From positions 115,609-159,777 of the forward strand of contig NZ_BBPO01000008.1 in assembly GCF_000787815.1 (NCBI RefSeq): a stretch of DNA of 44,169 bases, given 5' to 3'. The stretch is from Streptacidiphilus neutrinimicus (GTDB taxonomy: Bacteria; Actinomycetota; Actinomycetes; Streptomycetales; Streptomycetaceae). This document shows, one piece after another, positions 28,376 through 42,878 of this stretch; the first letter of the stretch is position 1, and each line of letters begins with the position of its first letter. A model generated the notes under the pieces. That model made no database searches and was not told the origin of the DNA. It saw only the letters and a program-made list of their open reading frames with translations. Position numbers and translations under genes: made by a program.

Positions 28376-28444
28376 CGGACCTGCCCGCGGGCGTCGATGC
28401 GCACCGCGGAACCGGCCTCAACAGGGCAGGAGCGGAGTACGGTG

Positions 28445-28549
28445 AAGGTACCGAGGGTTCTTCGGACACCGGCGGCCATGCCCTGTCGTTCTCGGCGAAC
28501 GCCGACACCGGGCCTGCCGCGGCGGGCCCGGGGACAGGCCCGCATCATG
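28445..28549 (+). promoter_or_regulatory. Conserved structured leader, DUF5994 copy 1
   Basis: This is one of three 105-bp related leaders in the window; its last three bases are the ATG. The outer stem pairs CCTGTC (28482-28487) with GACAGG (28533-28538). Inside are the hairpin TCGGC-GAAC-GCCGA (28492-28505) and a hairpin with arms GGGCC/GGCCC (28510-28529). The probable ribosome-binding site (GGGGACAGG) ends eight bases before ATG and lies in the outer stem. The 5' part is AAGGTACCGAGGGTT. Confidence 0.65.
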
Positions 28550-29311
28550 ACCCGACTGCCGCTTCCCGGGCGTCCTCTCGCGCTGCCCGACCCTCCGCCG
28601 TTCACGCCCCGCCCGCGCTTCGCGCTCAAGCCCGTCGGCCCGCCATCGGGTCTGCTCGACGGGGCCTGGTGGCCTCACTCCGATGACCTTGCGCACGAAC
28701 TTCCGCTGCTCATAGCCGAGTTGGACCATGGCTGGGGACGCATCACCCGTGTGACTGTCGACCCTCGCCACTGGAGGCAGCCGCTGCCGGCCCGTCTGCG
28801 GATAGCAGGTCACGTCATCCGGATCGGCTGGTGCGCCGTCGAACAGGATCCGCACAAGCTCCTGCTGCTCTCCTTCGGCGTCAGACGCTGCGACCTGCTG
28901 GTCGTCCCGCCGCAGACGGACCCGACCACAGCCGCCCGACTGATGGCGGCGGCCACCGACCCGGCCACCCGGCAGACCGCAAGCGCCCTGCTCGCCGCTG
29001 CCGTCGCCCTGGCCACCAACGCCTGGGAGTCCGACAGCGGCGTCGCCCGCGCCTCCCTGACGCCTGGGCAAGCTCTACCCGCTCGGCACTCGGCGGCCGA
29101 CGGCACGGTCGAGCACCTCAAGGCCCGGTTCGAGCAGCAGGGGACGTTCGGCGAAGCGGAGCTGTGGGCGGCCCAGCTGTCCAGGGCTGCGGAGGCCCGT
29201 GGCGGGAGCCTTGGACTCGAAGCGCTGGCCGAGGAGACCGGGCTCACGTACGAGCAGATCGGAGCGGGCACCCTGTGGCAGCTGCTGTGCTGGAAGGGGA
29301 GCAGTCCGTAG
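28547..29311 (+). CDS. DUF5994 family protein, copy 1
   Basis: The 254-residue protein is called from ATG 28547 because the conserved leader ends there in all three copies; in-frame codons upstream are leader sequence. The DUF5994 core is clear: LLDGAWWPHSDDLAHELPLL, WGRITRVTVDPRHW, RIGWCAVEQDPHKLLLLSF, DLLVVPPQTDPTTAARLMAA. The C-terminal part after about residue 175 adds VEHLKARFEQQGTFGEAELW and a final helical segment that the other copies lack. DUF5994 has no known function; members are small soluble actinobacterial proteins often near stress and signalling genes, as here beside a PP2C phosphatase. Confidence 0.85.
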   Translation: MTRLPLPGRPLALPDPPPFTPRPRFALKPVGPPSGLLDGAWWPHSDDLAHELPLLIAELDHGWGRITRVTVDPRHWRQPLPARLRIAGHVIRIGWCAVEQDPHKLLLLSFGVRRCDLLVVPPQTDPTTAARLMAAATDPATRQTASALLAAAVALATNAWESDSGVARASLTPGQALPARHSAADGTVEHLKARFEQQGTFGEAELWAAQLSRAAEARGGSLGLEALAEETGLTYEQIGAGTLWQLLCWKGSSP

Positions 29312-29339
29312 CCGCGGTAGCTGTTGCCGGCGCGCTCGA

Positions 29340-29505
29340 CTGATGAGGCATCAGAGTTCCGCTGGGTCTGCGGACATCGTGCGCGGGCGTCGACCTGGTG
29401 TCGTGTTCGCGGCGCCATCCGGCGGTAGGGCGGGGCGCAGCGGGGGAGACCAAGCCCGGGGTGAGGGAAGGTGACGGAGGGCCGTCGAAGCAGTGACACG
29501 GACAT
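29340..29505 (-). pseudogene. Decayed 5' end of a DUF5994 gene
   Basis: From ATG 29505 the minus strand reads MSVSLLRRPSVTFP, almost the same as MSVSLMRPPSVALP of the DUF5994 gene at 42772. After about 15 codons the similarity breaks down into frame-shifted traces and the conserved WWPHS core is absent. The remnant points toward the end of DUF5994 copy 1. It retains a full leader (29503-29607). Confidence 0.75.
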
Positions 29506-29607
29506 GGTGCGCGTCCTGTCTCCGGGCCTGCGGGCAGGCCCGGTGTCGGCGTTCGCCGAGAACGGCAGGGGCACTGCAGCCGTTGTTCGGAAGACCTTCG
29601 GTGCTTT
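29503..29607 (-). promoter_or_regulatory. Conserved structured leader, remnant copy
   Basis: By eye it differs from the leader at 42770-42874 at about 13 of 105 positions. The hairpin TCGGC-GAAC-GCCGA is unchanged, and the second hairpin is GGGCCTG-CCCG-CAGGCCC with no mispair. The outer stem has one mismatch (CCTGCC against GACAGG), as might be expected above a dead gene. Confidence 0.6.
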
Positions 29608-29689
29608 CAGCCCACTCCGCGCCGGGCCGGAGGGGACCGGCCCCAGGTCCCTGATCATCAGCATGGCACGGGGACAGTTCGCGCCAGGA

Positions 29690-29947
29690 TCAGACCTCGC
29701 CGGGGTGTGGGTGGTCGCCGCCGGACGAACGGTCGGGGAGCGGACCGGGCGCTTCGGGGGCGCGTGTGGTGTCCACTGTGAGGTGCAGTCTCGTACCGGT
29801 CCCGTCCGGCCCCGCCGGATAGCTGCGCTGTTCGGTGCTCACGAACGTGCTGCGCAGCACAAGCGCGACCTGGCGCGCGGCGTCCGGCGTGGCTGCGATG
29901 ACGCGGACGTCGGCGTGCCCGAGCGGCGGCAACGGCTCGTCCTGCAC
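29690..29947 (-). CDS. Small hypothetical protein
   Basis: The 85-residue protein is called from GTG 29947, just after GGAGG; the upstream open frame is low-complexity. The core HADVRVIAATPDAARQVALV and STEQRSYPAGPDGTGTRLHL resembles a family of short Streptomyces hypothetical proteins (V-x-A-x-(T/S)-P-(D/E)-A-A-R-Q-V-A, then TEQRSYPAG). No membrane segments are seen. The function is unknown. It lies on its own strand between two DUF5994 loci. Confidence 0.65.
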   Translation of the reverse strand: MQDEPLPPLGHADVRVIAATPDAARQVALVLRSTFVSTEQRSYPAGPDGTGTRLHLTVDTTRAPEAPGPLPDRSSGGDHPHPGEV

Positions 29948-29997
29948 AGGTCCTCCACTCCCCACGGACAGGTGACACGGTGTGGGCCGGTCGGTGG

Positions 29998-30025
29998 CCG
30001 ACCGCCGACCGCCGACCGCCGACCG
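29998..30025 (+). repeat. Four tandem copies of CCGACCG
   Basis: A perfect 7-bp repeat occurs four times in the non-coding DNA upstream of the small minus-strand gene. It may be simple slippage. Confidence 0.7.
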
Positions 30026-30118
30026 GGCTTCCGGGGTCCGCCCCCACCGTGGATCGTCGACCCTGCGACCGCCGGGAGCCACGGCAGCCAGTGGCAGGGC
30101 TTGGCACGCCCGACAGCC

Positions 30119-30153
30119 TTCACGCTACTCCGGCCCCACCGGAGTAGCGTGAA
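30119..30153. terminator. Perfect 15-bp hairpin, bidirectional terminator
   Basis: TTCACGCTACTCCGG and its exact complement flank the loop CCCCA. The hairpin is in the 300-bp region between the divergent genes at 29947 and 30249. Its symmetry and A/T ends fit a terminator, though no annotated gene ends next to it. Confidence 0.55.
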
Positions 30154-30248
30154 ATCGGCCCCGGAAGCGGCCCGGCGCGTCGGCCTTTGCCTGGCGGAGC
30201 GACGTCGGCCGTCGGGCGGGGTGGTCCGTTGCGGACAGGCGGTGTCCC

Positions 30249-30731
30249 ATGAGTGTCGATCCTTCCACCACGCCGTCAGCGGGAAGGCTGCTGCCGGACG
30301 GGAACGACTGGCCGCGGGCGCCCGGTGCGGTGGTCCTGCGGCTGGAGACGACCGCGTCGCGGCTCGGGGCGCACGACGGGGCCTGGTGGCCGCGCTCACG
30401 CGACCTGGCTGCGGAGCTTCCGGCACTCATCACGGCGGTGACGGAGTCCGTGGGACCGATCGAACGGGTGGGCCTGGACGCCGCCGCGTGGGACGAGGTG
30501 CCAGGACGGATGACCGTCGACGACCGGGTCGTCCATATCGACTGGTTCCCGGTCGGCGACGACACGGTGATCCTCACCCGCGGCGACCACGACCACTTCG
30601 TGCTCCTGGTCGTTCCTCCCGACGCGGACCCTGCGGCCGCCCAGGCCGCCATGGCCGCGGCGGTGCTGGCCGGCGCCTCGGACTCGGCCCGGCAGATCTT
30701 CGTCAAGACCGGCATCACATCCGCGGCGTGA
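30249..30731 (+). CDS. DUF5994 family protein, copy 2
   Basis: This 160-residue protein from ATG 30249 has the DUF5994 hallmarks HDGAWWPRSRDLAAELPALI, GPIERVGLDAAAWDEVP, HIDWFPVGDDTVILTRGDHD and HFVLLVVPPDADPAAAQAAM. It is closer to the common short form of the family than the other two copies and lacks the structured leader. It is four bases upstream of the GNAT-AAA+ gene, so the two are probably cotranscribed. Confidence 0.88.
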   Translation: MSVDPSTTPSAGRLLPDGNDWPRAPGAVVLRLETTASRLGAHDGAWWPRSRDLAAELPALITAVTESVGPIERVGLDAAAWDEVPGRMTVDDRVVHIDWFPVGDDTVILTRGDHDHFVLLVVPPDADPAAAQAAMAAAVLAGASDSARQIFVKTGITSAA

Positions 30732-30734
30732 CCC

Positions 30735-32057
30735 GTGGACCGCCGGACGACAGGGAAGCCCCAGGACCACGACCCCCGAGGGCCGACCGTGGCCGTGTGG
30801 CACGTTCGTGACTCCACACCGGACGATCTCGAGGCAGTGGTGCGGCTCGACGGTGAGAACGCCGGCGCGGACCCGCCCGCTGTCTTCCGTCTCTCGGAGG
30901 TCGTGGCCGCGCTGCAGGCCGGGAATCCGAGCGTGGTTGCGGTGGCCGAGGGGCATCTCGTGGGTGCGGCGGTGGGCCGGGTGGACGGGGACCGGGCCTG
31001 GGTGCTGCGCGTCGCCCTGCATCCGGCCTGGCGCAACCTGGGCCTCGGCACGGCGCTGGTCTCGGCACTGGAGCATCGTCTCCAGGCGGCCGGGGCCAGG
31101 ATCGTCGCCGCCGTTCTCTCGGCGGAGGCGACCGGCGCCACGGCGTTGGGCAACTCGGGCTTCTCCCCCCACCAGGGCCTGACGTACTTCGAGAAGGTCG
31201 CCGTGGTGAGCGCACAGGGCTCGGCGGTTCTGGCGTCGCTGGGGGGATCGGTGCCCGATGCCGGTCTCTGGGGGCAGCTGAGAGGGATGACCGACGAGAA
31301 GCGGCTCATCGAACGGCGCCTGGTGCTCCCGCTGGCCAATCCCGAGGTCGCGGACGAGCACGGCGTGGAACCTCCCCGCGCGGTGGTGCTGTTCGGGCCA
31401 CCCGGAACGGGGAAGAGCACGTTCGCCCGAGCGGTGGCCGGCCGGCTCGGGTGGCCGTTCGTCGAGCTCTTTCCCTCACGGCTGGCGTTGGAGGGTGGGC
31501 TCGCCACGGGCCTCGGGCACCGTTTCGGGCAGATCGCGGAGCTCGACCGGGTGCTGGTCTTCATCGACGAGGTCGAAGAGGTCGCCAGTACGCGCAACCT
31601 CGCGGACCCGGCGTCGGTCGGCGTGGTCAACGAACTCCTCAAGTCGATCGTGAGCTTCCGTGAGCGTGACGGCAGGCTGCTGGTGTGCGCCACCAACGCG
31701 GTCTCCGCCTTGGACCCGGCTTTCCTGCGGCATGGCCGCTTCGACTACGTCCTGCCGGTCGGGCCGCCGGACCGGGAGGCCCGCATCGCGTTGTGGACCG
31801 GGTACATTGCCAAGACGGGCACGGACGCCGACACGGAAGCCCTGGCGGACGCCAGCGACGGGTTCACTCCCGCCGACATCAAGCAGGTCGCCCGGGGGGT
31901 CGCCCAGACGGTCTTCGAGCGCACTCTCGACACCGGCGAACGGGCACGTCCCACCACTGCGGACTACCTGGACGCCATCGGCAGCACCCGGGCGACGGTG
32001 ACCGAGGAGATGGCCCGGGAGTTCGCCGACGACGCGACCCGGTACGGCCGGACCTGA
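30735..32057 (+). CDS. GNAT acetyltransferase fused to AAA+ ATPase
   Basis: The 440-residue protein is called from GTG 30735; GTG 30789 is an alternative start. Residues about 20-160 are a GNAT domain (WVLRVALHPAWRNLGLGTAL is the acetyl-CoA-binding motif A; GATALGNSGFSPHQGLTYFEK is the C-terminal part). Residues about 195-440 are an AAA+ ATPase: Walker A GPPGTGKST at about 221, Walker B VLVFIDEVEE at about 275, sensor-1 LLVCATN and the arginine-finger region FLRHGRFDYV. AAA+ modules of this kind remodel or unfold proteins. The fusion suggests coupling of an acetyltransferase to a remodelling motor, but the substrates are unknown. The stop is followed 81 bp later by corA. Confidence 0.88.
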   Translation: MDRRTTGKPQDHDPRGPTVAVWHVRDSTPDDLEAVVRLDGENAGADPPAVFRLSEVVAALQAGNPSVVAVAEGHLVGAAVGRVDGDRAWVLRVALHPAWRNLGLGTALVSALEHRLQAAGARIVAAVLSAEATGATALGNSGFSPHQGLTYFEKVAVVSAQGSAVLASLGGSVPDAGLWGQLRGMTDEKRLIERRLVLPLANPEVADEHGVEPPRAVVLFGPPGTGKSTFARAVAGRLGWPFVELFPSRLALEGGLATGLGHRFGQIAELDRVLVFIDEVEEVASTRNLADPASVGVVNELLKSIVSFRERDGRLLVCATNAVSALDPAFLRHGRFDYVLPVGPPDREARIALWTGYIAKTGTDADTEALADASDGFTPADIKQVARGVAQTVFERTLDTGERARPTTADYLDAIGSTRATVTEEMAREFADDATRYGRT

Positions 32058-32138
32058 GGACTCGCGGCGCAGGGGGCGACACTCCGCAGGCGTCGGCCGC
32101 GTCCGGCCCTGCCGAAGTGTCGCGGTTATGGTCGGAGC

Positions 32139-33119
32139 ATGGCCCGTACCCGGCTCTACCGAAGCGGCGTCCTCGCCCGGGAGGGCTTCCCGGTCAGCGA
32201 CGTCTCGCGGTATCTGGCGGAGCCGAACGCCGTCGTGTGGCTGGACCTGTGCCGACCGGACCCGGCCGACTTCGCGGCGGTGGGCGAGGAGCTGGGGCTG
32301 CACGAGCTCGCGCTCGAGGACGCCGTGCACGCCGGACAGCGCCCGAAACTGGACAGCTACCGGTCCCACCAGTTCCTCAGCGCCTACGCGGTCTCCGTCG
32401 CCCCGGACGGCGTGAGCCTGGTGACCAGTGAGATCGCCGTACTGATCACCGCGAACGCGCTGATCACCGTCCGCAAGGACGCCGGTCCGCCGCTCGACGA
32501 GGTGGTGGCCCGCTGGGACCGGGCGCCTGCCACCGCCTCCCCGGCGCCCGGCGTGGGCCTGCTGCTGTACGGCCTGCTCGACTACCTGGTGGACGGGCAC
32601 TTCGCCGCCGTACAGCATTTCGACGACCGCATCGAAGAGCTCGACGAACTGCTCTTCGGCGAGGAACGCAAGCAGATCCAGGAGGTGCAGCGGCGCTCGT
32701 ACGAGCTGCGCAAGTCGCTGGTCCGCCTGCGCCGGGTGGTGCTCCCCATGCGGGAGGTCGTCAACTCGCTGATGCGCCCGGACCTGGGGGTGGTGCCGGA
32801 GCCGCTCATGCCGTACTACCGCGACGTCTACGACCACGTCCTGCGCGTCACCGAGTGGACCGAGTCGCTGCGGGACATGCTCACCTCCCTGGTGGAGACC
32901 AACCTCTCGGTCCAGGCCAACCGCATGAACATGATCATGAAGAAGGTGACCAGCTGGGCGGCGATCATCGCCGTCCCGACCGCGATCACCGGCTTCTACG
33001 GGCAGAACCTGCCCTACCCCGGCTTCGGGAAGGAGTCGGGATTCCTCGTCTCCAGTCTCGTCATCGTCGTCCTCTCGGTGCTGCTGTACGTCGCCTTCAA
33101 ACGCAAGGACTGGCTCTGA
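32139..33119 (+). CDS. corA: CorA-family divalent cation transporter
   Basis: The 326-residue protein from ATG 32139 has a long cytoplasmic N-terminal domain (YLAEPNAVVWLDLCRPD, LALEDAVHAGQRPKLDSY), a stalk (RVTEWTESLRDMLTSLVETN) and two C-terminal membrane segments (ITSWAAIIAVPTAITGFYG-type, then FLVSSLVIVVLSVLLYVAF). The signature between them is YGQN rather than the classic YGMN, a variant common in actinobacterial members. CorA proteins form pentameric Mg2+ or Co2+ channels, but ion specificity cannot be read here. Confidence 0.92.
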   Translation: MARTRLYRSGVLAREGFPVSDVSRYLAEPNAVVWLDLCRPDPADFAAVGEELGLHELALEDAVHAGQRPKLDSYRSHQFLSAYAVSVAPDGVSLVTSEIAVLITANALITVRKDAGPPLDEVVARWDRAPATASPAPGVGLLLYGLLDYLVDGHFAAVQHFDDRIEELDELLFGEERKQIQEVQRRSYELRKSLVRLRRVVLPMREVVNSLMRPDLGVVPEPLMPYYRDVYDHVLRVTEWTESLRDMLTSLVETNLSVQANRMNMIMKKVTSWAAIIAVPTAITGFYGQNLPYPGFGKESGFLVSSLVIVVLSVLLYVAFKRKDWL

Positions 33120-33169
33120 CCGGAGTCGGGGGGCAAGCTGAATGGGGACATCCCGAGGAAGGGGGCCAC

Positions 33170-33529
33170 ATGGTGATCGAGGCTGCGGACATCCGTGAAT
33201 GGCGCACCCGGGACGTCGTGGACCCGGGCGGCCACAAGATCGGCGTGATGGAGGCGGTCTATGTGGACACCACCACCGACGCGCCGGCCATGGCCACGGT
33301 GCAGGTCGGCCTGCCCACCCGTCACCGGCTCGTCTTCGTTCCCCTGGACGGAGCGGTCGTCGGCCCCGGGTACGTCCGGGTCAACTACGCGAAGTCGCAA
33401 GTGAAGGGGTGCCCGGCGATCGGGGTGGACGACGTCCTGCCCGCGACGGAGGAGGAAGCGATCTTCCGGCACTACGGCCTGTCCTACCAGCCCGGCGCGG
33501 CGGGCGAGCGGCAACTCGCACGGCGCTGA
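33170..33529 (+). CDS. PRC-barrel domain protein
   Basis: The 119-residue protein starts at ATG 33170 after GAGGAAGGGGG. It begins MVIEAADIREWRTRDVVDPG and continues KIGVMEAVYVDTTTDAPAMA, then HRLVFVPLDGAVVGPGYVRV, the strand pattern of the PRC barrel in its short stand-alone form. PRC barrels bind partner proteins or RNA. It lies 50 bp after corA and 31 bp before a small membrane protein gene, in what looks like an operon. Confidence 0.85.
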   Translation: MVIEAADIREWRTRDVVDPGGHKIGVMEAVYVDTTTDAPAMATVQVGLPTRHRLVFVPLDGAVVGPGYVRVNYAKSQVKGCPAIGVDDVLPATEEEAIFRHYGLSYQPGAAGERQLARR

Positions 33530-33560
33530 CCGACATGCCCCGCACGGAAGGGTGGGCGTG

Positions 33561-33728
33561 ATGGCTCTGTTCCTGTTCGTGATCATCGTGGCGATCGTGC
33601 TCGGGATCGTCGGCGCCGTCGCCAAGGGCCTGCTGTACCTCCTGGTCATCGGAGCGGTGCTCCTGGTGGCCGACCTGATCTACCTGGGCTGGCGCTGGAG
33701 GCGATCGGGGCGCCAGGCCCAGCGCTGA
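33561..33728 (+). CDS. Small hydrophobic membrane protein
   Basis: The 55-residue protein starts at ATG 33561 after GGAAGGGTGGGCGTG. Two membrane segments are separated by a short turn: ALFLFVIIVAIVLGIVGAV and LLYLLVIGAVLLVADLIYL. The C-terminus is basic (RWRRSGRQAQR). Similar short proteins are widespread in Streptomyces as hydrophobic proteins of unknown function, often near stress genes. It follows the PRC-barrel gene by 31 bp. Confidence 0.8.
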   Translation: MALFLFVIIVAIVLGIVGAVAKGLLYLLVIGAVLLVADLIYLGWRWRRSGRQAQR

Positions 33729-33767
33729 CGCCCGCGCCGGGCGCCGGAAGCGGGCAGCGCGGCTGTG

Positions 33768-34040
33768 CTAGCCGGCCGGGGGCTGTGCCCCGTCCAGTTG
33801 TTCCTGGAGCCACTTCAGCGCTTCCGGCGTGGCCCCGTTCGCCCTCGCATAGTCGAGCAGCCGCTCGACCTGGCCGTCCAGGAGCAGCCGGACGTCCTGC
33901 TGCTGCGCGACCAGGAATCCCGCCGCCATGCCCTTCATCCCCCAGGCGGCGAGGGCCTGCTCCACGGCCGCCCGGTCGCCCCTGCGGGCATCGTCCATGA
34001 TCCGGTCGGTCAGGGCCTCCAGGTCGATGTCCATCGTCAT
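33768..34040 (-). CDS. Hypothetical helical protein
   Basis: The 90-residue protein is called from ATG 34040 (MTMDIDLEALTDRIMDDARR), with ATG 34034 as an alternative. The sequence is acidic and helical (GDRAAVEQALAAWGMKGMAA, QQQDVRLLLDGQVERLLDYA). I recognise no family. It lies just downstream of the PRPP synthase gene on the same strand. Confidence 0.6.
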   Translation of the reverse strand: MTMDIDLEALTDRIMDDARRGDRAAVEQALAAWGMKGMAAGFLVAQQQDVRLLLDGQVERLLDYARANGATPEALKWLQEQLDGAQPPAG

Positions 34041-34092
34041 GCACCCCAGCCTGCGCGGCTCGCCGCGGATGCGCGAGACGACCCACCCCAGG

Positions 34093-35058
34093 TCACCCCG
34101 GGTACACCCGGCTGCCGCCCACCCCACCCTGGACCGGGGACGCCACGGCGGGCTCGTCGCCGTGCAGCAGGTCGACGGCATCGGCGAGCAGCGGAGCCAC
34201 GGAGCACACCTGGAGCGGCAACCCTCCGGCAGACTCCACGGGAAGGGTGTCTGTGACGACCAGACGGCGGATCGGAAGCCGTTGGAGCCGGTCCCGGGCG
34301 CCGCCGACGAGCAGGGCGTGGGTCGTGGCCACGGTGATGTCGACGACGGCGCCGTGGGCCAGCAGGACCTTCACGGCCGTCTCGACGGTGCCTGCGGTGC
34401 TGATCATGTCGTCGATGATCACCGCAGGTCGCTCCGCGACACCCCCGACCAGTTCCTCGGCCAGCACCTGCGTGCCGGACACACGTGTCTTGCGGACAAC
34501 GGCCACGGGGAGGCGCAGCAGGCGGCCGTAGTGCTCGACGAGCTTGACCGCGCCGAGGTCGGGTGCGACCAGCACGGCGGCGCGGGACAGCTCCTGGCCC
34601 AGCGCGTCGGCGAGCAGGGGCACGGCGGTGAGCACTTCGACCGGGACGCCGCACATCGCCTCGAGCGCGGCGGTGTGCGGATCGATGACGACCAGTCGGT
34701 CGGCACCTGCGGCCACCAGCAGGTCGGCGGCGACGCGGGCGCCGACCGGCTGCCCGGCGGTGGTGCGCCGGTCCTGCCGGGCGTAGCCGAAGTACGGCAC
34801 GAGCGCGGTGAGTCTGCGCGCACCTCCCCGGTGGCACGCGTCGAGCAGGAGCAGCAGTTCCACGAGGTTGTCGTTCACCGGCGGCCCCGTGGGCTGGATC
34901 AGGTACAGGTCCGCGCCCTGCACGTCGCCCACCACGGGCCGCAGTTCGCCGTCGGGGAAACGATCGGTCTCGCAGGCCACCGGTTCGGTGCCGAGCGCTG
35001 CCGCGACGGCCTGCGCCAGGGCCCGGTGGCCTGTCCCCGCGACGATCCGAGGCCTCAT
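34093..35058 (-). CDS. prs: Ribose-phosphate diphosphokinase (PRPP synthase)
   Basis: This 321-residue protein starts at ATG 35058. It makes PRPP from ribose 5-phosphate and ATP. Visible motifs are FPDGELRPVV near the N-terminus, LYLIQPTGPPVNDNLVELLL, the ATP-binding YFGYARQDRR, RLVVIDPHTAALEAM, and the PRPP loop PAVIIDDMISTAGTVETA. It is probably a second, accessory copy rather than the housekeeping enzyme, given its company of stress genes. A nearby inorganic pyrophosphatase could help drive PRPP-using reactions, which release PPi. Confidence 0.92.
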   Translation of the reverse strand: MRPRIVAGTGHRALAQAVAAALGTEPVACETDRFPDGELRPVVGDVQGADLYLIQPTGPPVNDNLVELLLLLDACHRGGARRLTALVPYFGYARQDRRTTAGQPVGARVAADLLVAAGADRLVVIDPHTAALEAMCGVPVEVLTAVPLLADALGQELSRAAVLVAPDLGAVKLVEHYGRLLRLPVAVVRKTRVSGTQVLAEELVGGVAERPAVIIDDMISTAGTVETAVKVLLAHGAVVDITVATTHALLVGGARDRLQRLPIRRLVVTDTLPVESAGGLPLQVCSVAPLLADAVDLLHGDEPAVASPVQGGVGGSRVYPG

Positions 35059-35120
35059 CGCCGATCCGCGTGTGCCACGACGTCTCCTCTCCGCGACCCG
35101 CCGTCCGGACGGTCGGTCGG

Positions 35121-36430: not shown

Positions 36431-36510
36431 CCGGCGCCGTACGAACTCCGGTCCGGGGCGAGCGGCCCGCCGCCGTCGCCACATCATGGCTCCCGCGACA
36501 TGTACTGCCG

Positions 36511-37215
36511 TCACATCGCGGTAGTCATGGATGACCTGAGCCCGCTGAGGAGGATGTCGAGACCGCGTTCGAGTTCCGCGGCGCCGTCGTAGGAGGCCAG
36601 GACCGAGGCGAGACTGCGGAGCAGGGGGAACTCGTGGATCGGCAGGCGGTGCAGGCCCAGCCGTAGCAGGTCGTCGGTCTCGTCGGGGTTCTCGACGAGC
36701 TCCTGGAGTTCGTTGAGGACGTGTCCGTGCAGGAAGCCGAAGAGGGCGCGGTAGATGTGCAGGGCGTCGGCTCCGCTGAAGCCGGCGCGGGTCAGCAGGT
36801 CGAGGACGTCCTCGAGCGGGCGAAGAGTGCCGCGGGGGCGTAGTGCCAGTGGTGTGGCCAGCGGACGGGTGACCAGCAGGGGCACCACGTGAGGGTGGGT
36901 CAGTGCGATTCGGCGGAACTGGTGTGCCACACTGCGGAGTTGGGCGGTCCAGTCGGGGTCTGCGGGGTCCACCGTGAGCTCGGCGAGGACCGTCTCGGCG
37001 ACGCCGTCGAGCAACGCGGCCTTGTTCTCCGCATGGCGGTACAGGCTCATCGGGTCGCGGCCGAGCGCGCGGGCCAGCCCGCGCATGGACAGCTTCTCGA
37101 TGCCGTCGCGGTCGACGATCTCCAGCGCGCAGGCCAGCATTCGCTCGCGGGTGAGCTTGCCGTCCGGATGTGCCTCGGGTTCCCGAAGTGCAGCACCGAT
37201 TGAGGACGTGTCCAT
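36511..37215 (-). CDS. TetR-family transcriptional repressor
   Basis: The 234-residue protein from ATG 37215 has the TetR helix-turn-helix at about residues 20-66 (LTRERMLACALEIVDRDGIE, LSMRGLARALGRDPMSLYRH). The C-terminal part is like the tetracycline-repressor ligand domain (RRIALTHPHVVPLLVTRPLA, LHIYRALFGFLHGHVLNELQ). The divergent region at 37216-37384 carries three copies of a 10-bp palindrome, so it very likely represses its own gene and the divergent membrane-protein gene. The ligand is unknown. Confidence 0.92.
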   Translation of the reverse strand: MDTSSIGAALREPEAHPDGKLTRERMLACALEIVDRDGIEKLSMRGLARALGRDPMSLYRHAENKAALLDGVAETVLAELTVDPADPDWTAQLRSVAHQFRRIALTHPHVVPLLVTRPLATPLALRPRGTLRPLEDVLDLLTRAGFSGADALHIYRALFGFLHGHVLNELQELVENPDETDDLLRLGLHRLPIHEFPLLRSLASVLASYDGAAELERGLDILLSGLRSSMTTAM

Positions 37216-37276
37216 GCCGTCACCCTCCTCCGCCGGGGGCGGGCTTCGTCGCCGTGCGAGAAGGCTCCGAGGCCCT

Positions 37277-37355
37277 GTAGACCTACGATCTCACATGAAC
37301 TCGTAGATCTACACTGTAGACAGCGGTGTAGATCAGGAGTTTACTGTAGGTCTAC
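37277..37355. promoter_or_regulatory. Three GTAGNNCTAC operators
   Basis: GTAGACCTAC (37277-37286), GTAGATCTAC (37303-37312, a perfect palindrome) and GTAGGTCTAC (37346-37355, complement of the first) lie between the TetR gene and the divergent gene. Extra half-sites (TGTAGAC, TGTAGATC) fall between the second and third. They are the likely binding sites of the adjacent TetR protein. Confidence 0.75.
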
Positions 37356-37364
37356 GGCGTATAT

Positions 37365-37374
37365 CCCATATGGG
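37365..37374. promoter_or_regulatory. CCCATATGGG palindrome next to RBS
   Basis: A perfect 10-bp palindrome overlaps the start of the ribosome-binding site GGGAGG of the gene at 37385. It could be a second operator or a small RNA hairpin over the Shine-Dalgarno sequence. Confidence 0.4.
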
Positions 37375-37384
37375 AGGAAACGTC

Positions 37385-37924
37385 ATGATCATTGTTCTCG
37401 GACTCCTCATCCTCGTCGTCGCGGCCGTCATGGCCGTGGCGGGAATCTTCGGCAACACCGGCAGCACCCACGCCGTCAACGGCGCGTTCTCGGTGTTCGG
37501 CCACCACATGACCGGCTCCACGGGAACGCTCTTCCTCTTCGGCATCATCGTCGGCGCAGCGGCCATGCTCGGGCTGGGCCTGCTCCTGACCGGCGCGCGC
37601 CGCACCTCGCGCCGCGGCCTGAACGCGCGCAGGGACCTGCGGCAATCCCGCCGCGAGACCGTCGCCGCGGACAAGGACCGCGAGATTCTGGCCGGGCAGC
37701 GTGACACCGCCCGCGCAAGGACGGCAGCCGTCGCGCAGGAACGCGACGACCTCGCGGAACAGCGTGACGACCTGATCGACCAGCGCGAACTCGACCAGCG
37801 TGAACGCGTTCCTTCCGGATCGTCGGGTACGCGCGCGATCGCGGCATCGGATGGCGCTCCCGCGCCGTCGGGCGGAGGCACCCGCGGTCTGCATCTCTTC
37901 GGGTACCACCTCACGCGCCGCTAG
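37385..37924 (+). CDS. Two-TM membrane protein with charged coiled-coil tail
   Basis: The 179-residue protein is called from ATG 37385, seven bases after GGAGG; the upstream GTG lies in operator DNA. Membrane segments are MIIVLGLLILVVAAVMAVAG and LFLFGIIVGAAAMLGLGLLL, separated by FGHHMTGSTG. A charged helical segment follows (RRDLRQSRRETVAADKDREI, AQERDDLAEQRDDLIDQREL), then a Gly/Ser/Pro-rich end. The role is unknown; it is probably controlled by the divergent TetR repressor. A CsbD stress gene follows 42 bp later. Confidence 0.82.
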   Translation: MIIVLGLLILVVAAVMAVAGIFGNTGSTHAVNGAFSVFGHHMTGSTGTLFLFGIIVGAAAMLGLGLLLTGARRTSRRGLNARRDLRQSRRETVAADKDREILAGQRDTARARTAAVAQERDDLAEQRDDLIDQRELDQRERVPSGSSGTRAIAASDGAPAPSGGGTRGLHLFGYHLTRR

Positions 37925-37966
37925 GCCCCCGCCGAACGGCGAATCCCTCGCGAAAGGAACTCGGGC

Positions 37967-38140
37967 ATGAGTGTCGCCAAGAAGCTCGCCCACAAGGCCG
38001 AAGCGGTCAAGGGCGGCGCGAAGAAGGCCGCAGGCCGCGCCACCGGTGACCGCGCCCTGGAGGCCGAAGGCCGCACCGACCAGGTCAAGGGCAACACCAA
38101 GCACGCCGGCGCGAAGGTCAAGGACGCGCTCAGGCCCTGA
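37967..38140 (+). CDS. CsbD-family stress protein
   Basis: The 57-residue protein starts at ATG 37967 after AAAGGAAC. It is Lys/Ala/Gly-rich with the CsbD-like pattern KAEAVKGGAKKAAGRATGDR, LEAEGRTDQVKGNTKHAGAK. CsbD is a SigB-controlled general stress protein of Bacillus with unknown biochemical function; actinobacterial relatives are common in stress clusters. It is likely in one transcript with the membrane protein upstream. Confidence 0.88.
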   Translation: MSVAKKLAHKAEAVKGGAKKAAGRATGDRALEAEGRTDQVKGNTKHAGAKVKDALRP

Positions 38141-38347
38141 CCTGGAGTGCCACACATCCGCCCCCGGCAGCCGAATCGGCAAAGCCGCCTACGTCCACTG
38201 GACCTGGGCGGCGCCGGATTCGCCCTGCGCGCCCTGCGGCTGCTCGGCTTCGTCTTCCGAGGCCAGGGCAGCACCGCGGGCAGCCGCAGCCATTGGTACC
38301 GCTGGTAACGCTGCGGTAGGCCGCTCCGGGCCCCGGAGTTGGTGAGG

Positions 38348-39088
38348 TCAGCGATGCCGCGGTGATCGGGGGATCTGGTCGGTGTCGAACTCGCCGTCGG
38401 CGATCAGCCGGGCCAGGTGCGAGAGCTGGTGGTGGTGGGAGCGGGCGTAGGCGCGGAATGCTGCGAACGCCTGGTCCGGGGTGACCTGCCAGCGCTCGGC
38501 CAGGATGCCCTTGACCTGTTCCAGGACGATCCGGCTGGTGAGTGCGTACTGGAGCTGTCCGCGCTCGGTCTCGCTGTGGGCCAGGGTGCGCTGCTGCAGG
38601 ATGGCGATGGTGGCCACGTCCGCCAGTGCCTGGGCCAGGGCGGTGTCCGCGTCGCTCAGGGCACTGTCCCTGGTCTGGAACAGGCCGAGCGCGCCGATGA
38701 CGCGCCCGCGCAGCCGCATCGGGATCGCGTTGGTGGACAGGAAGCCGGACTGCAGGGCGGCCGGGGTGAACTGCGGCCACGCCTGCGAGGCGTTCGGGTC
38801 CGCGAGGTCGATGTTGGTGCGCGGCCGGCCGCTGCGGTAGCACTCCACACAGGGACCCTGGTCGTGCTGCAGGGCGAAGAGTTCCAGCAGCCGGGTGTTC
38901 TCGTCCGAAGCGGCCAGCACCTGCAGCACGTCGTGCTCGTCGGCCAGCAGCACCCCGCACGCCGCGACGTCCAGCAGTTCCACGCAGCGCTCGGACAACC
39001 GCTGGAGAAAGTCGATCAGGTCGAAGTCATCGATCAGGGAGTCGGCGACCTCCACGAAGACCTTGGTCAGTTGCTGCTCGCGGGCCAT
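38348..39088 (-). CDS. GAF-ANTAR regulatory protein 1
   Basis: The 246-residue protein starts at ATG 39088. The GAF sensor spans about residues 15-165 (CVELLDVAACGVLLADEHDV, LFALQHDQGPCVECYRSGRP, AIPMRLRGRVIGALGLFQTR). The ANTAR domain spans about 175-235 (ALTSRIVLEQVKGILAERWQ, DQAFAAFRAYARSHHHQLSH). ANTAR domains bind paired hexaloop RNA hairpins and prevent transcription termination. It lies five bases downstream of a second GAF-ANTAR gene, so the two form an operon. Confidence 0.92.
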   Translation of the reverse strand: MAREQQLTKVFVEVADSLIDDFDLIDFLQRLSERCVELLDVAACGVLLADEHDVLQVLAASDENTRLLELFALQHDQGPCVECYRSGRPRTNIDLADPNASQAWPQFTPAALQSGFLSTNAIPMRLRGRVIGALGLFQTRDSALSDADTALAQALADVATIAILQQRTLAHSETERGQLQYALTSRIVLEQVKGILAERWQVTPDQAFAAFRAYARSHHHQLSHLARLIADGEFDTDQIPRSPRHR

Positions 39089-39093
39089 GGCGA

Positions 39094-39876
39094 TCAGTCC
39101 TTGTCTGAGACGGGCAACGGGTTTCCGTCGCCGTTGCCGTTGAGGTCCAGGCGCAGCCGCCGCGCGACCACGTCCCGGGAGACGTCGGTGAGTGGCCGGC
39201 CGCTGCTGTAGGCGTGCGCGCGCAGCCGCAGCAGCGCCTGGGGCAGGGACACGTCGAGCTGGACGCTGACCATGCCGGTGGCCTGGTGCACGACGGCGTG
39301 CAGCAGCGCGTCGGCGGAATCGGCCGGAGCGGCCCCGTTCGGGCCCGGCACGACGCTGCCGAGTGCGCGCCCGGCCAGGGCATGCGCCAGGACCTGCGCG
39401 TCACCGACCTGCCCGTCGGTCAGCGGCCCTGCCGTCCGGCGTACCAGGGTCAGCACACCGACGCGGATCGCCCCGATGCCCATCGGGAAGCAGAACACCG
39501 CGCGGGCCGCCAGGCCGGCTGCCTCGACGCTCAGAGCCGGCCAGCGTTCGGGCCGCACCAGCGCGAGGTCGGGCACCAGCACCATCGCGTCGCCGCGCAC
39601 GGCCTCGGGGCCGGGGCCCTCGCCGAGAGTGAACTGCAGGTCCTCGAAGCTGCCGGCGGCATCGTCGGTGCACCACATCAGCTCCGCCCGGTCACCCCCG
39701 GTCGCCAGGGAGACCGTCAGCCCGGTCACGCCCAGGGTCACCGCGGCCAGCACGGCGACGTCCGCTGCGGCGTCGAACCCTTCGTCGCGCTGAAGCAGCC
39801 GCAGAACCTCGGCCATGCCGTCACTGATCACCGGTTGTCCTGTTCCAAAAGGACCTGGGACGTCGCAGATCGCCAC
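39094..39876 (-). CDS. GAF-ANTAR regulatory protein 2
   Basis: The annotated start GTG 39876 gives 260 residues, but it lacks a ribosome-binding site; GTG 39828 or ATG 39816, preceded by AGGA, may be the true start. The GAF domain has VTGLTVSLATGGDRAELMWC, FEDLQFTLGEGPGPEAVRGD and FPMGIGAIRVGVLTLVRR. The C-terminal ANTAR-like part is LLHAVVHQATGMVSVQLDVS, QALLRLRAHAYSSGRPL and VSRDVVARRLRL. It is expected to respond to a signal through GAF and act on RNA. It is the first gene of the pair. Confidence 0.88.
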   Translation of the reverse strand: MAICDVPGPFGTGQPVISDGMAEVLRLLQRDEGFDAAADVAVLAAVTLGVTGLTVSLATGGDRAELMWCTDDAAGSFEDLQFTLGEGPGPEAVRGDAMVLVPDLALVRPERWPALSVEAAGLAARAVFCFPMGIGAIRVGVLTLVRRTAGPLTDGQVGDAQVLAHALAGRALGSVVPGPNGAAPADSADALLHAVVHQATGMVSVQLDVSLPQALLRLRAHAYSSGRPLTDVSRDVVARRLRLDLNGNGDGNPLPVSDKD

Positions 39877-40184
39877 CCGACAACGAAGGGGCTGCCGAGT
39901 TGACGGCGATAGCGCGTGCCCCCGTATCCCTACGACTCCCGACCAGTGCGACCACCGTACCGCGCTCTCCGTCGCACCGGTGCCCAGGCGACGAGGGGAG
40001 CTTCCGCAACGGCGACGACGCCGAGGGGAGCAGGGCGCGGGTCTCGTTGGTGCGGCCCATCGCGACCTCCTCGCTGCGCCGAGCGGGTCTCCCCGTGCAA
40101 CACATAGAACTTATGGCAACACAGTAGTCGGGGATCTGCGCCACCGGCCCTGCCCGCGACGGAGGCGACGGAGGCTGGGCGGCT
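39877..40184. other. Intergenic region upstream of the GAF-ANTAR pair
   Basis: This 308-bp region between two minus-strand genes has no recognisable coding sequence. It should carry the promoter of the GAF-ANTAR operon. I see no ANTAR-type paired hexaloop hairpins here by eye. Confidence 0.4.
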
Positions 40185-40583
40185 CTACGCCGGGCGCGCG
40201 GGCTGCGGCGCGAGCAGGAGGCTCTCGGTGTCGGTCAGGGCGAGCAATCGCGCAACCGGCGGTGCCGGGTGGTGCAGTCGCACGGATGCTCCGATGGCCG
40301 CGGCGCGGTGGTAGGCGTCCAGGAACGCGCTCAGGCCGCTGCAGTCGCAGAAGCCGACGTGGGTGAGCTCGACATCGATCGTGCGCGCGCCATCGAGCAG
40401 GCACCGCGTCAGGGCTCGGCGGACCAGTGAGACGGAATCCAGATCGATGTCGCCGATCAGGGTGATCTCCGCACTGCTCCCACGATCGTGCCGCTCGACT
40501 GCCAACGTCGCCGCCCCCGCTCGGGGCTGGGGAAGGCTGTGGCTGACCATCAGGCGTCGAGTGACGACGCTTTCCGCGGACAT
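40185..40583 (-). CDS. STAS-domain anti-sigma factor antagonist
   Basis: The 132-residue protein is called from ATG 40583, with GAGGAGA five bases upstream; the longer open frame before it is low-complexity. STAS features are SSAEITLIGDIDLDSVSLVR, ARTIDVELTHVGFCDCSGLS and ASVRLHHPAPPVARLLALT. The loop DCSGL carries the Ser phosphorylated in SpoIIAA/RsbV-type antagonists. In those systems the unphosphorylated form binds the anti-sigma kinase and frees the sigma factor. The PP2C phosphatase at 27155 is a possible partner, though the genes are 12 kb apart. Confidence 0.9.
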   Translation of the reverse strand: MSAESVVTRRLMVSHSLPQPRAGAATLAVERHDRGSSAEITLIGDIDLDSVSLVRRALTRCLLDGARTIDVELTHVGFCDCSGLSAFLDAYHRAAAIGASVRLHHPAPPVARLLALTDTESLLLAPQPARPA

Positions 40584-40860
40584 CCAGATCTCCTCGGCCG
40601 TCTCGTCCGTGAGACCGCCGGGGGCTGGGGCAGCCGGAGCAAGGCCGCAGTTGCGACCTGAGGCCGGGCGTCGGGGGAGCCGCGTCGTACCGGCCTCGAC
40701 CGTGCGCGCCGACCAGGCAAACAGGTGTTCTGCTGGGAACTCTACGACGTGCCGAGGCCGTCTGCTGTCACGCGGACCAGTCACGGAACCCGCTCACGGA
40801 CCCCGGAGCCTCGTCGCAGCGCGTCCCACTCCTCCCGCGGTCGGCCCGGGCCGGGCAGGG

Positions 40861-41862
40861 TCAGATCCGGGTGAGCGGCTCGTCGGGGCTGAAGGCAGTG
40901 GGCCATGAAGCGGCGCGAGTACGGGCGACGTCGGCGCGCAGGCGGGCCTTGCCTAGTTCGCCGAACGGCGGGGCCTGTGAGGGCAGCATCGCCGGCGCGG
41001 AGTCGAAGCCCTGCTGGACGGGGACGGGGTGGAGCAGGGCTTGCAGGAGCTCGGCGTCCGAGGGTGCGAGCCCGTGGTGGGTCTCGGCCGGGGCGGGCAC
41101 CGGGCGGGACTGGGTGTCGAAGAAGCGCAGCATCTCGACGGGGAAAGGCATCACCAGGGTGCTGTTCTTCTCCGCAGAGACGTCCACGACGGTCTGCAGC
41201 AGCCGGAGTTGGAGTGCGCCGGGAGTGTCGGCCATCACGGCCGCCGCCTCGGAGAGTTTCTGGGAGGCCTGAAACTCGCCGTCGGCGGCGATCACGCGGG
41301 CGCGGCGTTCACGCTCCGCCTCGGCCTGCTTGGACATGGAGCGCATCATCTGGTCGGGCAGGGCGATGTCCTTGATCTCGACGCGTTCGATGCGCAGTCC
41401 CCAGGGTTCCTCGGTCGGGGCGTCCATGACCTGTTTGAGTTCGGCGTTGATCTGGTCGCGGTCGGACAGCAGGGTGTCCAGGTCGGCGCGGCCGATGACG
41501 GAGCGGAGCGAGGTCTGGGCGATCTGGGAGACGGCGTGGGGGTAGTTGTTGACGTTGACCAGGGCTTTGACGGGGTCGATGACGCGGAAGTAGACGACGG
41601 CGTCGACGGTGACCGTGACGTTGTCGGCGGTGATGGCTCCCTGGGTGGCGACGCCGAGGACCTCGGTCTGGACCGAGACCTTCCGCATCCGGTCGCCGAT
41701 CGGGCGGATCAGCCGCAAGCCCGGATCGCGCATGCCCGGCAGGAGCCGGCCGAACCGGAAGACGACACCCTTCTCGTACTGCTGCACGGTGCGCAGGCTG
41801 AGCGAGACCAGGACGAGGGCGGCGATCGCGAGGAGTACCGCGACAGTGATCAGGATGATCAC
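40861..41862 (-). CDS. Slipin (SPFH/band 7 membrane protein)
   Basis: The 333-residue protein is called from GTG 41862, ten bases after GAAGGA; the longer open frame reads through a hairpin and is unlikely. An N-terminal membrane anchor (IILITVAVLLAIAALVLVSL) is followed by the SPFH domain: RTVQQYEKGVVFRFGRLLPG, PGLRLIRPIGDRMRKVSVQT, VTVDAVVYFRVIDPVKALVN and WGLRIERVEIKDIALPDQMM. The C-terminal helix (QAEAERERRARVIAADGEFQ) is typical of slipins. These proteins organise membrane microdomains. No nfeD partner is adjacent. Confidence 0.92.
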   Translation of the reverse strand: MIILITVAVLLAIAALVLVSLSLRTVQQYEKGVVFRFGRLLPGMRDPGLRLIRPIGDRMRKVSVQTEVLGVATQGAITADNVTVTVDAVVYFRVIDPVKALVNVNNYPHAVSQIAQTSLRSVIGRADLDTLLSDRDQINAELKQVMDAPTEEPWGLRIERVEIKDIALPDQMMRSMSKQAEAERERRARVIAADGEFQASQKLSEAAAVMADTPGALQLRLLQTVVDVSAEKNSTLVMPFPVEMLRFFDTQSRPVPAPAETHHGLAPSDAELLQALLHPVPVQQGFDSAPAMLPSQAPPFGELGKARLRADVARTRAASWPTAFSPDEPLTRI

Positions 41863-41891
41863 GATGTTCACATCCTTCGATGGTTCGTCAC

Positions 41892-41947
41892 GCTTCGCCG
41901 CGCGGACGGGTGTCGCCAGCTGGGGACACCCGTCCGCGCGGCGAAGC
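41892..41947. terminator. Perfect 23-bp hairpin upstream of slipin
   Basis: Arms 41892-41914 and 41925-41947 are exact reverse complements, with loop GCCAGCTGGG. It lies between the small membrane protein gene (stop 41979) and the slipin start on the minus strand. It is probably the terminator of the DUF5994 transcript, and it also lies in the slipin leader if transcription reads through. Confidence 0.7.
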
Positions 41948-41978
41948 AGGTTCAGGAGCAGCGCCTGGCGCGTCGCCG

Positions 41979-42158
41979 TCAGGGACGGTGAAGTGTCGGC
42001 CGGGCCGCGGGGCTTCGTCGGTGGAGGCGCCAACGGTGCGGCTGGGCTGCCGTCGGCGACATGGCGTGGCGGGCGTTGGCCAGCTGGATCAGCAGCACGC
42101 AGGCGTAGATCATGGCACCGATCGCGAGCACGGTGAGGAGCGTCGTCACCGTTCTCAC
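41979..42158 (-). CDS. Small membrane protein coupled to DUF5994
   Basis: The 59-residue protein is called from GTG 42158, whose GTGA overlaps the DUF5994 stop codon; GTG 42149 is an alternative. One membrane helix (TLLTVLAIGAMIYACVLLIQ) is followed by a basic tail rich in Arg and His. The function is unknown. Translational coupling to DUF5994 suggests the two products are made together. Confidence 0.7.
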   Translation of the reverse strand: MRTVTTLLTVLAIGAMIYACVLLIQLANARHAMSPTAAQPHRWRLHRRSPAARPTLHRP

Positions 42159-42772
42159 CTGCCTGAGGACACGCTGATGCGGCCGATGGGCATGATCAGC
42201 GGAACGGACCGTGCCGCGCCGCCCTCGGATTCCCATGCGGCTTCCGCGCCGATGTCACGGGCCGGGGCGTCGGCCGCGTTGGTCGCGTCGTCGACGCTGC
42301 GGTCGCGTTCGGCGGCGAGCAGGGCGCTCGCGGCGGACGAGCCGGCCGGGTCGCCCGCGGCGGCCATCAGCCGGGCGGCGGCCGCCTGGCTGGTTTGCGG
42401 TGGGATGACGAGCAGGTCCCAACGGCCCGTGCGGTAGGACAGGAGCAGGAGCTTGTGCGGGTCCTGCTCGGTGGTGAACCAGCCGACCTTGACCACATGT
42501 CCCCGGACCGGAACCTCGCGGGGCAGCGACTCCCAGTGGCGAGGGTTCACGTTGACCCTGGTGATCCGCCCCCACACCCGGTCCAACGTGGGGATGAGTG
42601 AGGGCAGTTCGCGAAGGAGGTCGTCGGAGTGCGGCCACCAGGCGCCGTCCAGGGCGCCGACGGGGAGGCCGCCGCCTCCGGCGGCGGGCCGCAGGGCGAG
42701 GCGCAGCACGGGGGATTCCGTGCGGGGCGGGGGAAGGGCGACCGAAGGTGGTCGCATGAGTGACACGGACAT
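42155..42772 (-). CDS. DUF5994 family protein, copy 3
   Basis: The 205-residue protein is called from ATG 42772, where the conserved leader ends. DUF5994 hallmarks are ALDGAWWPHSDDLLRELPSL, WGRITRVNVNPRHWESLP, VGWFTTEQDPHKLLLLSYRT and DLLVIPPQTSQAAAARLMAA. It is close to copy 1 in the core but has a different C-terminal tail (EAAWESEGGAARSVPLIMPI). The role is unknown. A sigma-B-like promoter lies upstream, and the small membrane protein gene overlaps its stop. Confidence 0.86.
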   Translation of the reverse strand: MSVSLMRPPSVALPPPRTESPVLRLALRPAAGGGGLPVGALDGAWWPHSDDLLRELPSLIPTLDRVWGRITRVNVNPRHWESLPREVPVRGHVVKVGWFTTEQDPHKLLLLSYRTGRWDLLVIPPQTSQAAAARLMAAAGDPAGSSAASALLAAERDRSVDDATNAADAPARDIGAEAAWESEGGAARSVPLIMPIGRISVSSGR

Positions 42773-42874
42773 GATGCGCGTCCTGTCCCCGGACCCGCGC
42801 GCAGGCCCGGCGTCGGCGTTCGCCGAGAACGACAGGGGCACTGCAGCCGGTGTGCGGAAAACCCTCGGTACCTT
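42770..42874 (-). promoter_or_regulatory. Conserved structured leader, DUF5994 copy 3
   Basis: This 105-bp leader ends with the ATG. The outer stem CCTGTC/GACAGG and the hairpin TCGGC-GAAC-GCCGA are identical to those of copy 1. The second hairpin is GGGCCTG-CGCG-CGGGTCC, where G-U replaces G-C or A-U pairs seen in other copies, so pairing is kept. The GGGGACAGG ribosome-binding site is partly inside the outer stem. Confidence 0.65.
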
Positions 42875-42878
42875 TGTT

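Follow-up and report, generated by a model that had tools for sequence, protein, structure and literature searches.

A structured leader RNA family upstream of DUF5994 genes in Streptomycetaceae, mycobacteria and other Actinomycetia

In a 44,169-nucleotide stretch of Streptacidiphilus neutrinimicus DNA (contig NZ_BBPO01000008.1; hereafter the window), DUF5994 genes are preceded by a repeated leader that we found to belong to an RNA family with a conserved fold, a constant position and recurring gene partners. A first-pass annotation of the window had proposed a structured RNA leader for these genes, with an outer stem (CCTGTC/GACAGG) that overlaps the Shine-Dalgarno sequence and encloses two hairpins, TCGGC/GCCGA and GGGCC/GGCCC. 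That the leader is a structured, putatively cis-regulatory RNA of DUF5994 genes is borne out both by a covarying secondary structure and by its recurrent same-strand position just before DUF5994 and other recurring genes; the conserved, covariation-supported fold differs from the one first drawn. As the annotation suggested, control by the leader is probably exerted at the level of translation. On the basis of sequence comparisons, we assign a probability of roughly 0.52 to the reading that this is an Actinomycetia family of cis-regulatory RNAs acting as two-state translational leaders, in which a signal is sensed via a 5' bulged hairpin, P1-bulge-P2.

The family fold comprises a helix P1 (CCGAGGG/UUCUCGG), a 5-nt bulge on its 5' side, P2, and then P3, which adjoins the Shine-Dalgarno region. 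At the base of P2 are two near-invariant pairs, separated by a one-base bulge from up to eight further pairs and a six-base loop, and P3 (CCGGGCC...GGCCCGG) ends immediately before the Shine-Dalgarno region. The core YAYUU-CG-Y-AC facing GUCGU is common to Streptomycetaceae and mycobacteria. Copies were scored with model R1, based on the consensus fold of a 24-copy MAFFT alignment with P2 and P3 lengthened by hand, and with model R2, trained on Streptomycetaceae copies only. In the first window copy, the elements lie as follows:

28437..28549, + strand: leader copy 1, from the -10-like box through the ATG; 102 bits with R2 and 112 bits with R1; upstream of the DUF5994 gene 28547-29311
28438..28443, + strand: -10-like hexamer TACGGT, from the positional conservation GGAGTANNNTG in 86 copies
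28451..28457, + strand: 5' strand of P1, CCGAGGG, from alignment and covariation
28458..28462, + strand: 5-nt asymmetric bulge, UUCUU in this copy and YAYUU in the family consensus
28463..28488, + strand: P2 hairpin, with its six-base apical loop at 28474-28479 and near-invariant basal C-G and G-C pairs
28489..28495, + strand: 3' strand of P1, TTCTCGG, overlapping the first hairpin of the earlier proposal
28508..28531, + strand: P3 hairpin, CCGGGCC...GGCCCGG, equivalent to the second hairpin of the earlier proposal
28532..28538, + strand: Shine-Dalgarno region GGACAGG, containing the 3' strand of the first-proposed outer stem; the GG is conserved
28547..29311, + strand: DUF5994 gene under copy 1 (Pfam PF19457, E 1.4e-35)

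The MAFFT alignment of 24 copies yielded a consensus fold unlike the first-proposed one, and larger alignments support it. Alignment A3 holds 138 matches, drawn from 80 stretches among the better matches listed together with 20 earlier loci; within it (137 distinct Streptomycetaceae copies), 18 of 23 pairs show changes on both sides, 91.6% of the cells are paired versus 39-47% after sliding one strand by 1 to 3 columns, and no shuffle out of 500 attains any of five measures. A3 was fitted to a covariance model, which biases it toward the fold; the MAFFT alignments A2 and A6 were made without a model, and A6, comprising 29 mycobacterial leaders analyzed with RNAalifold, likewise yields P1-bulge-P2-P3. 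With 30 mycobacterial leaders included in a set of 123 sequences (A5), 20 of 23 pairs are changed on both sides and 91.8% of the cells pair. Cross-sequence shuffles among 86 nonredundant Streptomycetaceae copies, taken from the best 118 of the 138, back P1, P2 and P3 alike (0/1000 for each). On a FastTree phylogeny of the best 128 of the 138 copies, tested against a null that keeps each column's number of changes, we observed 37 same-branch compensatory events over the whole fold (7.2 +/- 2.5 expected; 0/300 nulls as high), with 9 against 1.4 expected in P1, 14 against 3.6 in P2 and 14 against 2.4 in P3 (0/300 nulls each). A de novo ranking of covariation in the best 128 rows of A3 places predicted pairs in all of the first 5 ranks and in 8 of the first 10; the remaining two column pairs among these (59-162 and 109-161) have no neighboring pair with which to make a helix.

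The wider alignment thus gives covariation for P1, P2 and P3 and little or none for the outer stem and the TCGGC hairpin of the first-pass annotation. Its second hairpin is real, being identical to P3. The outer stem has no such support: across the 86 copies its own-partner score is 8.66 versus 8.86 for shuffled partners (903/1000 shuffles as good), and on the tree it shows 2 compensatory events versus 1.5 expected (141/300 nulls) and 53.1% paired cells versus 49.9% (63/300). For the TCGGC hairpin the outcome is mixed, with an own-partner score of 7.81 versus 7.55 shuffled (17/1000) and 53.5% paired cells on the tree versus 43.2% (9/300) in its favor, and a score below 9 in 58/86 copies and a single compensatory event versus 0.8 expected (167/300) against it. 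The partner of the CUCGG strand that had been placed in this hairpin is instead the CCGAG close to the 5' end, which gives P1. The earlier pairings can form in window copies 1 and 3; in copy 2, the outer stem contains a C-A mismatch (CCTGCC/GACAGG). Among 26 distinct Streptacidiphilus copies, pairable cells amount to 151/156 for the outer stem, 128/130 for the hairpin and 179/182 for P1, a near-invariance within the genus that adds little further evidence; one compensatory case, CCCGTC/GACGGG, is seen in the outer stem. Since both use the CUCGG and UGUC strands, P1-P2 and the first-proposed junction are mutually exclusive, and the latter may be an alternative state of the same RNA within Streptacidiphilus.

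The three 105-bp leaders of the window lie where they were first placed, with their ATGs included (28547-28549 on the + strand; 29505-29503 and 42772-42770 on the - strand), and model R2 reveals that the conserved unit reaches 8 bp further 5', taking in the -10-like box. Their assignment to DUF5994 genes or a remnant holds for copies 1 and 3, both followed by PF19457 genes; the frame behind copy 2 is a remnant with a short matching N terminus and no Pfam family. The DUF5994 gene at 30249, said to lack the leader, indeed has no model match upstream. The remaining leaders and DUF5994 genes of the window are the following:

29503..29615, - strand: leader copy 2 (81 bits with R2), with the -10 box TGGGCT, before the DUF5994 remnant; no Pfam match downstream
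42770..42882, - strand: leader copy 3 (87.8 bits with R2), with the -10 box TAGAAC
42155..42772, - strand: DUF5994 gene under copy 3 (Pfam PF19457, E 2.3e-38)
30249..30731, + strand: DUF5994 gene without a leader match before it (Pfam PF19457, E 3.4e-39)

Copies 1 and 2 are convergent (28437-29615), such that a copy-2 transcript would enter the copy-1 DUF5994 gene in the antisense direction. A weak further match in the window (8917-9024; 20 bits) falls inside a long reading frame and was taken as chance. The leader as coding sequence was ruled out, as one- and two-base insertions or deletions between copy 1 and copies 2 and 3 shift the frame into the coding sequence.

The genome holds five leader copies, not three: BLAST located the fourth 21 kb upstream of the window, and the fifth, which is weaker (R1 43 bits, E 1.6e-7; + strand, G000:C177:101754-101862, equivalent to L240:11755-11863), precedes a CBS-domain gene. 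The leader therefore stands before three of the genome's seven DUF5994 genes, one remnant and one CBS-domain gene. The E-values of the other genomic copies in BLAST (1.1e-32 to 3.5e-28) and the presence of the leader over the class establish that its repetition is not due to chance; nor is the similarity merely that of a recently copied locus. BLAST searches with copy 3 recovered matches in 9/14 Streptacidiphilus genomes and those with copy 2 in 76/394 genomes of the family, many of them short and weak; some of the weak matches in other genera are full-length relatives running from the GTANNNT box through the start codon. R1 detects matches in 126/200 Streptomycetaceae genomes and 12/17 genera (E <= 0.001). 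Against 48 mycobacterial and nocardial loci, gathered by DUF5994 protein similarity and not by the RNA model, R2 finds a match on the coding strand directly upstream of DUF5994 in 37 (E <= 0.01; best 47 bits). A search with model R3 over 394 genomes of the class extends the family to 57 genomes in 18/138 genera (E <= 0.01). Outside Streptomycetaceae there are 47 matches in 40 stretches; 24 of the 31 that reach at least 43 bits stand before a frame that matches the DUF5994-holding protein set by BLAST, as opposed to 2/16 of those below 43 bits, which are mostly chance. Over 396 genomes of the phylum, the only additions by R2 from outside the family are a pair of low-scoring matches (31.0 and 27.3 bits).

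DUF5994 is the principal partner of the leader: 94 of the 138 leaders in A3 precede the single BLAST cluster that holds DUF5994 proteins, membership being by BLAST and not by Pfam for each member. Another 12, among them those at L049 and L168, are followed by a family of ~220 to 375 aa proteins that looks GNAT-like by eye; neither of the two members searched matched a Pfam or NCBIfam entry. Four leaders precede a short family resembling the window protein at 29690-30082, four precede a cluster of CBS-domain proteins (two members tested), 13 precede smaller clusters or singletons, and 11 have no frame of 60 codons behind them. Further partners include a fatty acid desaturase (L220) and an alanine-dehydrogenase-like protein (L251), and a histidine-kinase-type ATPase frame lies ~250 nt behind one leader (L190). 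STAS frames occur behind three leaders, directly in one case (L292) and ~70 nt past the leader's own start codon in the others (L256, L229). Viewed from the STAS side, by coordinates 2 of 94 matches in five Streptomycetaceae genomes lie directly behind a known leader, and 2 of 30 STAS loci examined hold leaders, both at already known places. The leader probably tunes a set of stress genes. At five loci (L175, L187, L191, L198 and L205), two leaders lie no more than a few hundred bases apart in back-to-back orientation, before divergent genes.

The element spans the -10-like GTANNNT through the start codon. Upstream of the 86 copies the conservation reads GGAGTANNNTG, with only weak signal further up, and in mycobacteria the corresponding region reads GNGTANNNT. 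Because P1 begins ~8 nt past the -10 box, we infer that the transcript begins at or beside P1, in which case the leader would be the entire 5' untranslated region of its mRNAs. P1-bulge-P2 would then be the first part to fold, given a transcript starting next to P1. The YAYUU bulge and the flanking near-invariant pairs could form the recognition site for a trans-acting factor, with a protein likelier than a metabolite. With P1-P2 formed and held, the ribosome site would be free, P3 standing beside the Shine-Dalgarno sequence; loss of P1-P2 would release the UGUC and CUCGG strands, which in Streptacidiphilus could form the first-proposed junction and pair the Shine-Dalgarno sequence, with less translation as the expected result. 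Whereas the element, its conserved fold, its position and its gene partners are shown, the start of transcription, recognition at the bulge and a two-state control with its direction are inferred. More tentatively, the leaders might constitute a new and ancient sensory RNA class, in which a stress or dormancy ligand or protein holds a cotranscriptionally formed 5' bulged hairpin and thereby keeps the Shine-Dalgarno sequence free. The equally tentative scope of such a class would be Streptomycetaceae, Mycobacteriaceae and other Actinomycetia, and its regulon would take in the genes for DUF5994, CBS, STAS, desaturase and alanine-dehydrogenase-like proteins.

Predicted folding bears on the proposed two-state leader in both directions. 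In its favor, folding programs give P1 a probability of ~0 in the three window leaders and in the 16/16 Streptacidiphilus copies tested, and the competing TCGGC hairpin one of 0.74-0.98 in 15 of these 16, the last being without the motif searched for, yet P1 is the helix that evolution keeps. Against it, P1 exceeds 0.5 in only 18/93 Streptomycetaceae and 13/30 mycobacterial copies, and the energy models may misjudge this helix. Forcing P1 costs 10.4 kcal/mol in copy 1 and 4.6 kcal/mol in copy 3. The first-proposed junction is the lowest-energy fold of copies 1 and 3, with probabilities of 0.88-0.97 and ~0.7, respectively, for the outer-stem pairs, and the outer stem of copy 2 reaches at most 0.02. 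Several further results weigh against the two-state reading. Single-sequence folding z-scores are weak, at -1.19, -1.59 and +0.41 in the three leaders of the window and -0.68 and -1.13 in two further copies. Because the stem pairing the Shine-Dalgarno sequence has no covariation over the family and exceeds 0.5 in only 10/16 Streptacidiphilus copies, an OFF state may be a local feature or may not exist at all. In copy 2, P1 contains an A-C mismatch (CCGAAGG/TTCTCGG); together with the altered -10 box of this copy (TGGGCT) and the gene remnant, this suggests that it may be decaying. In mycobacteria alone, compensatory events number 3 versus 2.0 expected (108/300 nulls as high), with a paired fraction above all 300 nulls. 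Finally, an earlier phylogenetic null in the style of R-scape that moves substitutions between columns left A3 and A6 without significant pairs and A5 with two; we judge it unfit because it does not keep each column's rate, the rate-keeping null being the fitter. The retention of P1 by evolution despite the predicted thermodynamics is what one would expect of a helix that is the first to form as the RNA is transcribed, or that a ligand or protein keeps in place. A hairpin pairing the Shine-Dalgarno sequence with bases after the ATG was ruled out for Streptomycetaceae, its own pairing being no better than shuffled (9.40 versus 9.42; 568/1000 as good). The mycobacterial consensus from A6 includes a short hairpin, GAC-GGGAGC-GUC, that displays the Shine-Dalgarno sequence in a six-base loop.

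Other readings assign P1-P2 a different role. It could be a metabolite aptamer, making the family a new riboswitch class that senses a stress or dormancy signal. Conservation of the bulge and near-invariant pairs across distant families, the several stress-type partners and the location beside the Shine-Dalgarno sequence are consistent with this; the few invariant unpaired nucleotides and the lack of an obvious metabolic theme are not, and bulged hairpins this simple are more usual as binding sites for proteins, so that we consider an aptamer unlikely, though a serious candidate. A 5'-terminal hairpin might also act mainly to stabilize the mRNA against RNases, without any switching, as would fit both the start of P1 about where the transcript should begin and the poor conservation over the family of the stem pairing the Shine-Dalgarno sequence. 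Such a stabilizer would need neither a conserved bulge sequence nor a class-wide tie to DUF5994, which makes this role rather improbable. That the static three-way junction first drawn, with its sequestered Shine-Dalgarno sequence, is the functional fold appears highly doubtful: its status as the lowest-energy fold of copies 1 and 3 and its near-complete pairing in the 26 genus copies, with one compensatory case, are set against little or no family-wide support and the negligible outer stem of copy 2.

The window also encodes two ANTAR proteins, and the contig with the leaders carries 2 of the 11 ANTAR matches found genome-wide, which, with the six-base loop of P2, raises the idea of a divergent target of ANTAR RNA-binding proteins. 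The A1/G4 pair of ANTAR hexaloops is not conserved in P2, however, P3 has no constant six-base loop, and ANTAR-like frames are found near only 7/48 mycobacterial and at most 8/80 Streptomycetaceae loci (loci of 4 to 16 kb). Applying the hexaloop rule, we ruled this candidate out, and its residual probability is very small. The conserved sequence might finally be a DNA control element, a promoter plus operator, and not an RNA. It does include GTANNNT, P2 is palindromic, and a subset of copies has a palindrome at -23 resembling the site of the dormancy regulator OsdR; P1, in contrast, shows compensatory changes between strands more than 30 bp apart, the bulge is asymmetric and the element occupies a fixed place from the -10 box to the ATG. 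The P1 covariation rules out the operator reading, to which we accord next to no probability. The OsdR consensus palindrome is given as AGGGCCGATCGGCCCT in the part of the source consulted (PMC5069765). A palindrome of this type, with at least 9/11 fixed positions, occurs in 32/86 upstream regions versus 12/86 controls, 12 of them exactly at -23; its pattern, GGNCCGNTCGGNCC, was shaped after viewing the same regions, and the counts are to be read accordingly. They hint at a link to the OsdR/DevR dormancy regulon for a subset of the leaders.

The neighborhoods of the leaders show further regularities. Window positions 27155-42033 hold a cluster of stress-type genes, coding for a SpoIIE phosphatase, the two ANTAR proteins, STAS, SPFH, CorA and TetR. 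The small protein at 29690-30082 (- strand) has no Pfam or NCBIfam match, and its relatives occur in 28/80 Streptomycetaceae loci. Among mycobacterial and related loci, a CspA-type cold-shock gene lies directly upstream on the same strand at L093, L121, L122, L274, L279, L280, L289 and L293, and a Csp gene is present in 10/48 mycobacterial loci. By eye, a 2369-codon frame (5957-13066, + strand) is RHS-repeat-like with a Hint-like region, and a short intergenic tandem repeat, CGACCGCCGACCGCCGACCG, is seen at 29998-30026. An AlphaFold model of the copy-3 DUF5994 protein (59 sequences, pLDDT 85) has no PDB match at E <= 0.001, and the structural search lends no support either way to DUF5994 acting as an RNA-binding self-regulator.

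The leaders add to the known RNA repertoire a covariation-supported family without an Rfam 15 match, spanning several actinomycete families including mycobacteria, and link genes previously without a stated common theme. We found no mention of DUF5994 in the literature searched and no PDB match to its predicted fold; the leader thus offers a handle on when DUF5994 genes come into use. With the models and the predicted bulge site, the signal becomes open to experimental test.

The leader had been called undescribed, and, apart from a possible overlap of a minority with the dauA motif, this stands: no Rfam 15 family matches it (window, E up to 5; nine loci, E up to 1), and no account of it was found in the literature searched. 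Two cspA-family matches below the gathering score lie on the neighboring Csp genes and not on the leader. None of the actinobacterial names tried occurs in a 26-genome survey. As far as their description was available, ANTAR-target RNAs, defined by two stem-loops with hexaloops bearing A1 and G4, resemble the DUF5994 leader in being leaders of actinobacteria and in carrying hairpins close to the ribosome site (PMC8164766), and ANTAR genes occur in the window; the DUF5994 leader differs from them in lacking conserved A1/G4 hexaloops and the dual hexaloop arrangement. The claim that its hairpins are not of ANTAR type is accordingly sound, the P2 loops reading, for example, UUCCAC, UGCAGU and GGCCAU and the P3 loops varying in size.

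Like the yjdF-type orphan motifs, at least as outlined in the material consulted, the DUF5994 leader is structured and associated mostly with a single family of unknown function; it is set apart from them by the absent Rfam 15 match and not by a fold-by-fold comparison. The OsdR/DevR dormancy regulon, as presented in the portion of the source consulted (PMC5069765), resembles it in the palindrome fixed in some promoters and in stress-type genes, and differs in exerting transcriptional control through DNA binding; the words "leader" and "untranslated" are absent from that paper's main text. The dauA motif (SRC-36-1) of a 2024 survey is described, in the sections consulted, as a junction of three stems with the Shine-Dalgarno sequence as part of it, with 57 representatives, in Streptomyces, before a STAS gene (PMC11109978). 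It is also a Streptomyces mRNA leader by a start codon, three leaders of the DUF5994 family precede STAS frames, and its junction resembles the first-proposed junction, which can form in Streptacidiphilus copies and has little or no support over the family. Compared by the dauA description only, the DUF5994 leader differs in its P1-P2 and P3 architecture, its class-wide range and its position mostly before DUF5994. From that partial account, the dauA motif could overlap a minority of the DUF5994-leader family.

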